Source: Paracidovorax anthurii
GTDB lineage: Bacteria > Pseudomonadota > Gammaproteobacteria > Burkholderiales > Burkholderiaceae_C
DNA: 64,000 nt
Assembly (NCBI RefSeq): GCF_003269065.1
Contig: NZ_QLTA01000019.1
Span: 1 to 64,000 of the forward strand
Direction of reading: 5' to 3'
Positions 1 through 56,089 of this stretch are shown one piece after another. A program made the position numbers and the translations under genes. The notes beneath the pieces were generated by a model. The model made no database searches, was not told the origin of the DNA, and worked only from the letters and a program-made list of their open reading frames with translations. The number at the start of each line of letters is the position of its first letter. The first letter of the stretch is position 1.

Positions 1-303
1 GGGCAGATCGTTGCCGCCCAGACTCAAGGACAGCTGCTGCACCACCTGCCACATCGGCAGTTGCCGATATAGCGACAAGCCGATGACCAGCCAGATGGCG
101 TGCTCGGCTGGAAGCTTGCGCCTGCGGATGCTGGCCTTGCCGCTGGCGGCAAGGGCTTGGGTGATCCACTCGTTGTCGATCAACTGCGCCAGCTCCCCCA
201 GGCTATCGTTGGGGGCTTGTTGCAGGGTTTGGGTCAGGGTGTTTTCGAGCAGGCGCAAAGCAAAAAGGGAACGTGTTGCACACGTTCCCTTTTTAGCTCC
301 CAT
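1..303 (-). CDS. IS4-family transposase, N-terminal fragment (runs off the window)
   Basis: The first 101 residues of a transposase are visible; the DDE catalytic core lies beyond the window. Residues around 45-85 (IDNEWITQALAASGKASIRR, then RKLPAEHAIWLVIGLSLYR) match the typical N-terminal domain of IS4 transposases, with the pattern 'W(I/V)..AL...G..S.RRRKLP.E...WL(V/I)IG..LYR'. The ATG at 301-303 is the first in-frame start. Codons 4-14 run through a perfect hairpin (262-294), so initiation is probably inhibited on read-through transcripts. An alternative start further in cannot be excluded. The gene looks intact as far as it can be seen. Confidence 0.8.
   Translation of the reverse strand, partial: MGAKKGTCATRSLFALRLLENTLTQTLQQAPNDSLGELAQLIDNEWITQALAASGKASIRRRKLPAEHAIWLVIGLSLYRQLPMWQVVQQLSLSLGGNDLP
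262..294. repeat. perfect 15-bp hairpin at the transposase start
   Basis: The arms AAAAAGGGAACGTGT and ACACGTTCCCTTTTT surround a 3-base loop. The structure lies 7-40 bases inside the transposase reading frame. With A-tracts on one side and T-tracts on the other it could act as a terminator on either strand, or mask the start of the transposase message. Confidence 0.8.
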
Positions 304-365
304 CAGACTTCCAAGGGCTTATCTGACTGGCATTGCCCTGCGGGCGGGGCCCGCGCCCGGCCGGC

Positions 366-1211
366 CTATTGCCGCGCCGTGCGCACGTTGGGCGGCAGGG
401 CCTGCGGGTGGCTGGTGCGCAGCGGGTTGATGTCCAGCCCGCCCCGGCGCGTGTAGCGTGCGTACACCGACAGCTTGATGGGCCGGCAGCGCGTCCACAG
501 GTCCATGAAGATGCGCTCCACGCACTGCTCGTGGAATTCGTTGTGGTTGCGGAAGCTGACGAGGTATTGCAGCAGCCCCGCCTGGTCAATCTGCGCGCCG
601 CTGTACTGGATGCGCACGCTGCCCCAGTCGGGCTGGCCGGTCACCAGGCAGTTGCTCTTGAGCAGATGGCTCACGAGGGTCTCGGTGACGGGGGCTTCGC
701 CGTGTTGGGCGTGCAGCAGTTCGGGGGCCGGGGTGTACTGCGTGCATTCCACGTCCAGCCGGTCCAGCAGCAGGCCGTCGAGCTCCTGCACGGGCTCGCG
801 GTCGAACATCTCGGGCAGCACGAGCTTCACGCCCACCGTGGCCGGGTGCTGCGCGCCGCGCCAGACCGCTTCGCTCACGTCGGCGCGGAGGCGCGCCTGC
901 ACTTCGGCCGCGTCGGCGAAGCGCGTGCCGTTGAAGCTGTTCAGGTAGAGCTTGAACGACTTGCTCTCCACGATGTTCGGCGTCTCGCAGGGCACGGTGA
1001 CGTGCGCGATCGCCACCTGCGGCTTGCCGCGCGGGTTCAGCCACGAGAGCTCGAACGCGGTCCAGAGGTCCGCGCCGAAGAAGGGCGGCGCACCGGTGAT
1101 GCCGATCTCGTCGCGCTTGGGCTTCCGCGGCAGGGGGAAAAGCAGCGAGGCGTCGTACTGGTCGGCATAGGCGGCGGCGCGGCCCAGCTGCGATTGGTCG
1201 GGAGTGCTCAT
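366..1211 (-). CDS. queF: NADPH-dependent 7-cyano-7-deazaguanine reductase
   Basis: QueF reduces the nitrile preQ0 to the amine preQ1 in the queuosine tRNA-modification pathway (cytosolic). At 281 residues it is the long, two-domain E. coli-type form. The substrate-binding motif [13 protein letters not shown] is at about residues 82-94. The catalytic cysteine is C188 in [13 protein letters not shown], and D195 follows in the same motif, matching C190/D197 of the E. coli enzyme. The gene is single, read away from the oxygenase gene's end, with an AT-rich dispersed repeat (1225-1286) immediately upstream of its ATG. An IS element lies just past its stop. Confidence 0.96.
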
Positions 1212-53529: not shown

Positions 53530-54660
53530 TCAGGCGTCCAGCAGGATGCGCAGCATGCGGCGCAGCGGCTCCGCGGCACCCCACAGCAGCTGGTCCCCGA
53601 TGGTGAACGCGCCGATGTATTCCGGTCCCATGGCGAGCTGGCGGATGCGGCCCACGGGAATGTGCATGGTGCCGGTCACGGCCACGGGCGTGAGGTCGCG
53701 CAGCGTGGCCTCGCGCGTGTTGGGCACCACCTTCACCCAGTCGTTGTCGGCGGCGATCATGGCCTCGAGGTCGGCCACGGGCACGTGCTTCTTCAGCTTG
53801 AAGGTCAGTGCCTGGCTGTGGCAGCGCATCGCGCCCACGCGCACGCAGAAGCCGTCCACCGGCACGGGCTGCGTGCCGAAGCCTTCGCCCTGGCCCATGA
53901 TCTTGTTGGTTTCGGCCATGCCCTTCCACTCTTCCTTGGACATGCCGTTGCCCAGGTCCTTGTCGATCCAGGGGATCAGGCTGCCGCCCAGGGGCACGCC
54001 GAAGTTGGCGGTCTCGGCCTCGGAGAGGCTGCGCTGCTTGGCGATGACCTTGCGGTCGATCTCCAGGATGGCGCTCTTGGGATCGTCGAGCAGCGCGCGC
54101 ACCTCGGCGTTGAGCGTGCCGTACTGAGTGAGCAGCTCGCGCATGTGCTGCGCGCCGCCGCCGCTGGCGGCCTGGTAGGTCTGCGTGCTCATCCATTCGA
54201 CGAGGCCGGCCTTGTACAGCGCGCCCACGCCCATCAGCATGCAGCTCACGGTGCAGTTGCCGCCGACCCAGTTGTTGCCGCCGCTGGCCAGGGCGTTCTT
54301 GATGACGGGCATGTTCACCGGATCGAGCACGATCACGGCGTCGTCCTTCATGCGCAGGGTGGACGCGGCGTCGATCCAGTGGCCCTTCCAGCCGGCTTCG
54401 CGCAGCTTGGGGAAGACTTCGGTGGTGTAGTCGCCGCCTTGCGCGGTGATGATGATGTCGCAGCGCTTGAGGGCGTTGATGTCGAACGCGTCCTGCAGCG
54501 TGGTTTCGTTGCGTGCCTGGGCGGGCGCCTTGCCACCGGCGTTCGACGTGGAGAAGAACAGCGGTTCGATGAGGCCGAAATCGCCTTCGGCCTGCATGCG
54601 TTCCATCAACACCGAGCCGACCATGCCGCGCCAGCCCACCAACCCTACCAACTTGCTCAT
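53530..54660 (-). CDS. asd: aspartate-semialdehyde dehydrogenase
   Basis: Makes aspartate semialdehyde, the branch point to lysine, diaminopimelate, threonine, methionine and isoleucine. 376 residues: NADP motif [19 protein letters not shown] at the start, the catalytic cysteine C136 in [14 protein letters not shown], and the histidine in [10 protein letters not shown]. Directly upstream lies a Thr-rich leader ORF with terminator-like hairpin, which suggests attenuation control. Downstream is fimV. Confidence 0.97.
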
Positions 54661-54680
54661 TTCAACGCCCTTTCGGTTTA

Positions 54681-54705
54681 AGAAAACAGTGCCCGACCGG
54701 GACTG
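54681..54705 (-). terminator. candidate attenuator hairpin before asd
   Basis: On the minus strand CAGTCCC (54705-54699) and GGG(c)ACTG (54694-54687) pair around GGTC, with one bulged C, followed by TTTTCT. It lies 20 bases before the asd ATG and after the leader ORF, the position of an attenuator. Confidence 0.6.
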
Positions 54706-54708
54706 CTC

Positions 54709-54729
54709 GCCTGGCTCGTCTGGGCCAGG
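54709..54729 (-). promoter_or_regulatory. pre-terminator hairpin of the asd leader
   Basis: CCTGGC (54729-54724) pairs with GCCAGG (54715-54710) around an 8-base loop. The CCAGGC segment could instead pair with an earlier GCCTGG near 54742-54748, and GGGCTG at the leader stop codon could pair with the terminator left arm. These are mutually exclusive options, as expected of an attenuator. Confidence 0.5.
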
Positions 54730-54755
54730 AAGGGCGCACGACGAACCAGGCTGGG

Positions 54756-54860
54756 TCAGCCCTTAATGGTGGTCGTGGTTTTGGTGATCGTTGCGCGCTC
54801 GGCCACACCGGCCAGGGCGGCGGGTGCATTGTTCAGGGCGAACGGGCGGGCGGCAAACAT
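54756..54860 (-). CDS. candidate Thr/Ile/Lys-rich leader peptide of asd
   Basis: A 34-residue frame ending in [14 protein letters not shown]: of the last 11 residues before the TGA six are Thr, two Ile and two Lys. This recalls the thr-operon leader peptide of E. coli (Thr/Ile-rich). All three residues are end products that depend on Asd. The start ATG (54858-54860) lies about 8 bases after a TACAAT box (54868-54873), so it may be translated from a leaderless message. An upstream in-frame ATG (54869) lies inside that box. Alternative: a chance frame. Confidence 0.5.
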
Positions 54861-54867
54861 GGCGGGC

Positions 54868-54873
54868 ATTGTA
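54868..54873 (-). promoter_or_regulatory. candidate -10 box for the asd leader
   Basis: TACAAT on the minus strand. No good -35 element was found. The predicted start of transcription (about 54861) falls at the ATG of the leader peptide. Confidence 0.4.
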
Positions 54874-55015
54874 GCGGATAGCCTTGCGCGGCCCCGTACG
54901 TGGATCCACGCATCGCGTGCCGCCGGGTGGGACGCGGCGCTTGCCGGCCGGGCCCGCACCCGGAAGGGAAAGCGGCCCGTGGGCCGCCGTGCCGGCACAC
55001 GGGCGCAGGGCGAGG

Positions 55016-56089
<1,074 letters not shown>

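Follow-up and report, generated by a model that had tools for sequence, protein, structure and literature searches.

In the bacterial family that includes Paracidovorax anthurii, the gene of one enzyme, LeuB, has probably absorbed the leader of the next gene, asd. A run of threonine, isoleucine and lysine codons, which in other loci of the family closes a small standalone leader frame ahead of asd, makes up, in close to half of the family loci that were read, the C-terminal tail of LeuB. It is likely that this run has no role in LeuB itself, that it is sensed by ribosomes finishing LeuB and that it sets asd translation via an RNA switch located 3′ of the leuB stop. The standalone leader and the LeuB tail would be interchangeable forms of one sensor, and short in-frame deletions, or a separation of leuB from asd, would convert one form into the other. 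The product of Asd leads to lysine, threonine and isoleucine, and asd is required for all three amino acids.

Organization of the asd Leader in Paracidovorax anthurii

The window, i.e., the whole stretch of 64,000 nucleotides that was analysed, carries the locus on its minus strand (Table 1). Among the last 12 residues of the leader 10 are Thr, Ile or Lys, and the runner-up among the 1329 stop-ended frames with 12 open codons in the 64-kb window has 7; the presence of a Thr/Ile/Lys leader frame before asd is far beyond chance. The feature that defines codon-run attenuators, a short frame closed by consecutive codons for the amino acids that the pathway makes, is found here. The leader TGA is separated from the asd ATG (54660) by 95 nt. 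The original prediction described the leader frame, a CCTGGC/GCCAGG hairpin, a CAGTCCC/GGGCACTG hairpin and two alternative pairings, and all of these are present in the sequence; the minimum-energy fold (z -2.17; 8 of 200 shuffles fold equally well) contains both alternative pairings. The gene located 3′ of asd (53301-50509, minus strand) codes for a FimV-like protein (Pfam FimV_N).

Table 1. Features of the leuB-asd region in the window.
Feature	Position	Strand	Basis or remark
-10-like box TACAAT	54868..54873	-	Sequence; ends 7 nt 5′ of leader ATG
Leader ORF, 34 codons and TGA, probably leaderless	54756..54860	-	Sense codons 54860-54759, TGA 54758-54756
Thr/Ile/Lys run ACG ATC ACC AAA ACC ACG ACC ACC ATT AAG GGC	54759..54791	-	Sequence
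GGGCTG, region A at leader end	54757..54762	-	Partners: following CAGCC (S0) or terminator CAGTCC (A:B)
P1 5′ arm GCCTGGTTCGTC	54740..54751	-	Fold and comparative data; covariance models R1, R2
X, GCGCCCTT, inside P1 loop	54730..54737	-	Complementary to asd Shine-Dalgarno region; 8 contiguous pairs with AAGGGCGT
CCTGGC, loop half of alternative hairpin P1′	54724..54729	-	Pairs with GCCAGG
P1 3′ arm GACGAGCCAGGC	54709..54720	-	Its GCCAGG (54715-54710) pairs with CCTGGC too (P1′)
Terminator-like hairpin CAGTCCC GGTC GGGCACTG, then TTTTCTT	54680..54705	-	-7.7 kcal/mol; patchy across family
Terminator arms CAGTCCC / GGGCACTG	54705-54699 / 54694-54687	-	Sequence
Alternative pairing GCCTGG(TTCGTC) with (GACGAG)CCAGGC	54751-54740 with 54720-54709	-	
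Alternative pairing GGGCTG with CAGTCC	54762-54757 with 54705-54700	-	
X′, AAGGGCGT, overlapping asd Shine-Dalgarno region	54665..54672	-	Sequence and pairing comparison
asd, aspartate-semialdehyde dehydrogenase, 376 aa, proposed controlled gene	53530..54660	-	NCBIfam TIGR01745, 591.5 bits (cut-off 402.9)
leuB, 357 aa, next gene upstream, no tail here	55016..56089	-	Pfam Iso_dh, 464 bits

Conservation of the Standalone Leader

The term family refers here to the family in which the genome collection places the window (f1), and the named loci belong to Comamonadaceae and Sphaerotilaceae of NCBI. The leader-peptide search, performed on 40 genomes, found the leader upstream of asd in 17 of 17 genomes of the genus, i.e., that of the window and 16 others, which bears out the predicted Thr/Ile/Lys leader peptide ahead of asd, and also in two other genomes of the family. 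A profile built from 16 leader peptides gave matches in 49 of 200 family genomes (E<=0.01). Differences in leader length are multiples of three. When two leader peptides were scanned against Pfam and NCBIfam, 0 families were matched at E<=1. The N-terminus of the leader, MFAARPF-LN (window 54860-54820, minus strand), is kept over many genera; a codon sensor needs no such sequence.

The leader of the window was proposed to be leaderless on account of its TACAAT box, and the comparison agrees with this proposal. A -10-like hexamer with its end 6-9 nt 5′ of the leader ATG is present in 109 of 120 distinct standalone-type loci, a set that includes near relatives; the locus of the window itself is counted among the boxless ones, since the script picked an ATG located further upstream. 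An AGGAG-like sequence 5-16 nt 5′ of the leader ATG was present in 2 of the 120 loci and absent from 118. Judged from these sequences, the leader frames appear to share a conserved, leaderless type of start.

The Thr/Ile/Lys run itself varies in order and length (TKTTTIKG, TKTITKG, GKTITKS, TTTKTIKS), and the share of Thr, Ile and Lys in the last 12 residues amounts to 67.8% for the standalone form (66 loci) and to 61.6% where the run is the tail of LeuB (76 loci). A constant composition together with a fluid order is expected of a codon sensor. Among the Ile codons of the run ATT accounts for 62/125 and 74/122, vs. 321/1777 in the asd genes of 80 named loci, and among the Lys codons AAA accounts for 66/114 and 81/176, vs. 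419/1743 in the same genes. The run may favour less used codons, which is suggestive only, its positions being related by descent.

Another explanation of the leader is that the peptide sequence itself matters, including its MFAARPF start, either by nascent-peptide-specific arrest or because the leader peptide acts in trans. The N-terminal sequence kept across genera, unneeded by a codon counter, speaks for this explanation, which is nevertheless improbable, as the LeuB-tail forms have quite different sequence upstream of the run and the run keeps its composition and not its order.

The LeuB-Tail Form

The DNA 5′ of asd was obtained from 170 of 200 family genomes, and after removal of 4 without a readable asd start, 166 loci were classified by a procedure that favours LeuB tails, so that a locus with both forms cannot be listed. 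A standalone leader was assigned to 66 loci, a LeuB tail to 77 (one of them doubtful) and neither form to 23. The 77 tails comprise 76 found by the classifier and L130, a true tail below the cut-off that remains in the comparison set of 30 family loci; L286, one of the 76, has RNA that does not align and is probably a false tail. In the tail loci the run is the in-frame C-terminal end of the LeuB encoded upstream (e.g., ...MGDAVVAAITKTITKG) and it is followed by the same RNA as in the standalone loci.

The last 12 residues of LeuB contain on average 7.4 Thr, Ile or Lys residues in the 76 tail loci, compared with 1.3 in the 30 family loci of other type and 1.25 in 12 loci from the order. Among standalone loci, the run was absent from LeuB in the 11 where this protein is in view and in the 31 named ones where it was read. 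By name, the tail is carried by Roseateles, Ideonella, Leptothrix, Rubrivivax, Aquabacterium, Methylibium, Sphaerotilus and Curvibacter gracilis, and further by some Hydrogenophaga and one Limnohabitans. The standalone form is found in Acidovorax loci and in the other Limnohabitans and other Hydrogenophaga listed, with the exception of L216, where the upstream DNA is cut off. Thus one genus name, as Hydrogenophaga and Limnohabitans demonstrate, spans both forms. A Comamonadaceae-like asd locus (L150) also occurs in a record labelled as a Singulisphaera (Planctomycetota) MAG, which is probably mislabelled or a mixed bin.

Based on these sequences, our reading of the tail form is that an enzyme gene took up a leader peptide. 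It might be argued instead that the tail, a genuine in-frame part of LeuB, serves the LeuB protein, e.g., its stability or interactions, and that the likeness to the leader is secondary. This is very unlikely, given that the tail begins where the closest LeuB of solved structure (4iwh) runs out of sequence, at residue 355 of the 371 in a tail-bearing LeuB, that the asd hairpin is found in 68 of 77 tail loci, and that standalone leaders have the same run outside LeuB, with LeuB of the standalone loci read devoid of it.

Covariance Models of the RNA Element

The covariance model R1 comprises the end of the run and the hairpin that follows it and was derived from 52 loci of both types; it includes four leader codons. 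The original idea was staked on conservation of the Thr-rich frame and the hairpins in relatives; this was checked and the idea survived, R1 having matches at E<=0.001 in 164 of the 200 genomes of the family. In the genome of the window there is one strong match (4.6e-17); the next has E of 0.07, and the three further matches (E 0.07-0.94) were treated as chance. Among 300 genomes of the order, strong matches are confined to nine genomes of the window family; sixteen other matches, the best with E of 3.6e-4, were treated as chance.

As R1 contains leader codons, a second model, R2, was built without them, from the stop codon onward, with 23 standalone loci. R2 matches the coding strand of 68 of 77 LeuB-tail loci vs. 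1 of 51 controls at E<=0.1, the controls being 22 family loci lacking the element, 20 order loci and 9 of 33 loci from two other Burkholderiales families, f32 and f14. The tail loci missed by R2 are L079, L089, L103, L105, L115, L227, L283, L286, and L287. The one control that R2 matched, L081, has a LeuB without the run and a hairpin that is kept. In L276, which R2 does not match, a hairpin similar by eye follows a poor LeuB tail. Both L081 and L276 are possibly decaying copies; they and the 23 family loci of neither form speak against the sensor reading. In L071 (genome G067, 1-821, minus strand) the run and P1 are present approximately 590 nt from asd, and a frame that by eye is GNAT-like acetyltransferase intervenes. 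An earlier, pattern-based test for P1 was too lax, as it fired in 6 of 24 family loci of other type and in 2 of 20 order loci, hence the reliance on covariance models.

No match at the gathering score of Rfam release 15 was found across the window. At E<=10, the region 54600-55020 gave two weak matches, to RAGATH-5 and HTT-AS1_3, neither of which lies in the leader or on its strand. The element is a candidate regulatory RNA that had no match in this search of Rfam release 15.

Competing Pairings between the Leader Stop and asd

Hairpin P1 consists of GCCTGGTTCGTC paired with GACGAGCCAGGC, and the 3′ arm may alternatively pair with CCTGGC of the loop (P1′). When segments were permuted among 142 loci, the native combinations matched better for P1 (z -7.1; standalone -6.1, tail -2.4), for P1′ (z -7.3; standalone -4.1, tail -5.3) and for the loop with the Shine-Dalgarno region (z -7.3; standalone -2.3, tail -4.5), although differences between standalone and tail loci inflate the pooled values and relatedness is not removed. 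At the base level, an A in the 3′ arm is accompanied by T in the loop in 11 of 11 loci, and a G by C in 96, T in 17 and an unread base in 8 of 121 (the arm is unread in 10 of 142). The column covariation of P1 (92.7% of cells paired, 4 two-sided cells; reached by 15 of 500 shuffles) is modest because the core is conserved in sequence.

The motif pair X:X′ is unreadable in 71 of 142 loci; in the 71 readable ones the neighbour base of the X core pairs in 60 (shuffled mean 36, maximum 48, 2000 shuffles), yet standalone loci invariably have G at this position; the number reflects mostly the difference between types, with no covariation within the standalone type. Pairs divergent in sequence still match over 8 bases, i.e., GTGCCCTG:CAGGGCAC in L285 and GTGCGCCT:AGGCGCAT in L255.

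For S0, the last codon AGC is accompanied by AGCTC in 33 of 37 loci and by another sequence in 4, with AGCC in 0, and the last codon GGC by AGCC in 46, AGCTC in 45 and another sequence in 9 of 100. Against permuted combinations S0 pairing is in excess in tail loci (z -3.7); there is no excess within standalone loci alone (z 0.5). Pairing of Thr codons CACGAC with GTCGTG of P1, suggested by the automatic consensus fold, was demoted to a possibility, as many LeuB-tail runs lack that sequence.

The strong sequence conservation of P1 (UCGUC...GACGAGCC) goes beyond the needs of pairing, and P1 could serve above all to bind a protein or ligand, with the codon run as a second input. We regard this as unlikely: each arm has two partners (P1/P1′, X:X′), thus its sequence is constrained anyway, and Rfam gave no match at the gathering score.

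Ribosome Position and the Proposed Switch

The 142 loci were folded with a ribosome hiding the RNA either nine codons before the stop codon or at the stop codon, the footprint reaching A-site +12. When the ribosome moves from the stalled position to stop, in standalone loci the expected pairs of P1 fall from 8.2 to 0.65, those of P1′ rise from 2.2 to 6.0, and those of the loop/5′ arm with the Shine-Dalgarno region rise from 2.8 to 8.0. The loss of P1 follows from the assumed footprint, unlike the increases in P1′ and in Shine-Dalgarno pairing. The latter goes up in 55 of 66 standalone loci and down in 2 (shuffled: up 27, down 12), and in the tail loci up in 40 of 76 and down in 9 (shuffled: up 25, down 16), with expected pairs changing from 7.1 to 9.5. 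Since Shine-Dalgarno sequestration in tail loci is already high with the stalled ribosome, the predicted switch is weak there. A cruder measure, the mean pairing of the Shine-Dalgarno region, moves little (standalone 0.579 to 0.637, tail 0.504 to 0.533).

Mutually exclusive structures between the leader stop and asd were found both by prediction and by comparison, weakly in the LeuB-tail type. According to these foldings, asd would be closed with a ribosome at the stop codon and open with a ribosome delayed in the run, which is well supported for the standalone form and weakly supported for the tail form.

We infer that the leader is translated and that the switch responds to starvation in the following direction. 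The transcript would start at, or one or two bases from, the leader ATG, and a ribosome would load on this leaderless message. It would slow in the run whenever threonyl-, isoleucyl- or lysyl-tRNA is in short supply, leaving the RNA past the stop codon free to form the long hairpin P1 and, in the window, also the antiterminator GGGCTG:CAGTCC. P1 would hold the anti-Shine-Dalgarno segment X in its loop, so the asd start would stay open (asd ON). When amino acids are plentiful, the ribosome would reach the stop codon and cover the lower 5′ arm of P1, the 3′ arm would re-pair with the loop (P1′), and X, thus freed, would pair with the asd Shine-Dalgarno region (asd OFF); in the window, the terminator hairpin would form as well. 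In the LeuB-tail relatives the sensing would be done by ribosomes finishing LeuB. It is quite likely that such a switch, set by ribosome position, ties asd expression to charged Thr, Ile and Lys tRNA.

Transcriptional or Translational Output

A strictly defined hairpin with U-run after P1 was detected in 14 of 66 standalone loci, the window included, and in 1 of 76 LeuB-tail loci; in four shuffles the same scan gave 0-3 standalone loci and 0 tail loci. By eye, weaker hairpins followed by CTGTTT are common in standalone loci. A plain U-run terminator as a conserved output of the whole family was set aside after the strict scan and was retained for the window. Tail loci show strong matching of the loop with downstream sequence (z -7.0); standalone loci show none (z -0.1). 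In the tail loci L093, L240, and L242 a segment of the P1 loop (e.g., ACAAACCC) matches a segment between P1 and asd (GGGTTTGT) that runs into, or lies before, a T-stretch; these pairings may represent terminators of another, lineage-specific design.

The locus was originally taken for a thrL-like attenuator with an intrinsic terminator. Its leader peptide and exclusive hairpins stand; the terminator as general output is not fully borne out, given its patchy distribution (14/66, 1/76) and the wide occurrence of P1/P1′ and of loop:Shine-Dalgarno pairing. Accordingly, one has to weigh classical transcription attenuation alone, in which the run decides on the CAGTCCC/GGGCACTG terminator via the GGGCTG:CAGTCC antiterminator and the Shine-Dalgarno pairing is incidental. 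The hairpin of the window is followed by TTTTCTT and in the stalled-ribosome fold GGGCTG:CAGTCC replaces it, hairpins with U-run exceed the shuffled counts in standalone loci (14/66 vs. 0-3 in four shuffles), and region A matches region B better than permuted segments in the pooled set (z -5.9). However, no terminator passes the strict test in 52 of the 66 standalone loci and in 75 of the 76 with a LeuB tail, the A:B match is weak inside each type (z -2.0 and -1.8), and the loop:Shine-Dalgarno match is widespread. Attenuation of transcription alone is consequently a possible but rather doubtful account of the family. As the re-pairing hairpin and the loop:Shine-Dalgarno match are best conserved and the U-run terminator is patchy, control looks mainly translational as far as these sequences tell, with a terminator added in some lineages, that of the window among them. 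Translational control is at least as likely as terminator attenuation.

Origin and Relation to Known Systems

Standalone Thr/Ile/Lys leaders located 80-90 nt before asd were also found in the other Burkholderiales families, in 18 of 30 f32 loci read and in 3 of 3 f14 loci (L327-L329, L332-L336, L340, L341, L343-L346, L349-L351, L353, and L355-L357), which indicates that the standalone form is the wider one. The Thr/Ile/Lys-rich standalone frame of these loci is as in the window; the downstream hairpin differs. Most of the 18 f32 leaders are followed by a CGTCGTGCCC-like sequence, the f32 hairpin being of the CTTCCCCGC/GCGGGGAAG type, and of the f32/f14 loci with a leader, eight were searched with R2 and none was matched at E<=0.1. 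The tail form would arise from the standalone one if a short in-frame segment separating leuB from the run were lost. On a tree of 84 Asd proteins, in which six rows with unread type (L216 among them) were coded as none, the fewest-change count gives at least 11 changes of type, the tree being poorly resolved, so that conversions cannot be counted; its well-supported branches are compatible with a single origin of each type.

In E. coli, thrL attenuates the thr operon by means of Thr/Ile codons. With thrL and other proteobacterial attenuators the window shares a short ORF with codons for end products, exclusive hairpins and a terminator-like hairpin. It differs in that asd is the controlled gene, the codons are those of Thr, Ile and Lys, there is no match at the Rfam gathering score and the sensor is often part of LeuB; moreover, the main conserved output here appears to be Shine-Dalgarno pairing.

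Within the literature searched, the standalone asd leader comes closest to SEP5, described in Sinorhizobium (PMC10117765). This small ORF, which has six Thr and three Lys codons toward its 3′ end, was proposed to be a leader peptide and is located in the 5′ UTR of a gene termed there aspartate dehydrogenase (PMC10117765). Its translation was detected by Ribo-seq and Western blot and, according to the authors, it is conserved in Sinorhizobium only (PMC10117765). SEP5 is alphaproteobacterial, and the available text describes neither an RNA switch nor a LeuB tail for it; it is likened to the asd leader by description only (PMC10117765). In the same paper, trpL/rnTrpL of Sinorhizobium meliloti has its leader peptide on a leaderless message that starts with AUG; it is a tryptophan attenuator, likened by description only, and common descent with the asd leader is not suggested (PMC10117765). 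In the literature searched, which includes few subscription journals and probably not the 2004 attenuator survey by Vitreschak and colleagues, the available parts of the sources reported no asd leader of Burkholderiales and no enzyme tail acting as a leader (PMC4117421, PMC2965389, PMC5688073, and PMC10117765 among them).

The standalone leader belongs to the known kind of leader-peptide attenuators and the LeuB-tail form is the new part.

Significance of the LeuB-Tail Form

Attenuators are taught as dedicated leader peptides. The family of the window provides numerous natural examples of one sensor that would exist either as a separate small gene or as the tail of an enzyme, and the origin and loss of leader peptides become directly testable in such a family. 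The proposed absorption of the leader would explain enzyme tails which annotation would take for features of the protein. It also predicts cross-talk, by which translation of the leucine operon would influence the aspartate pathway.
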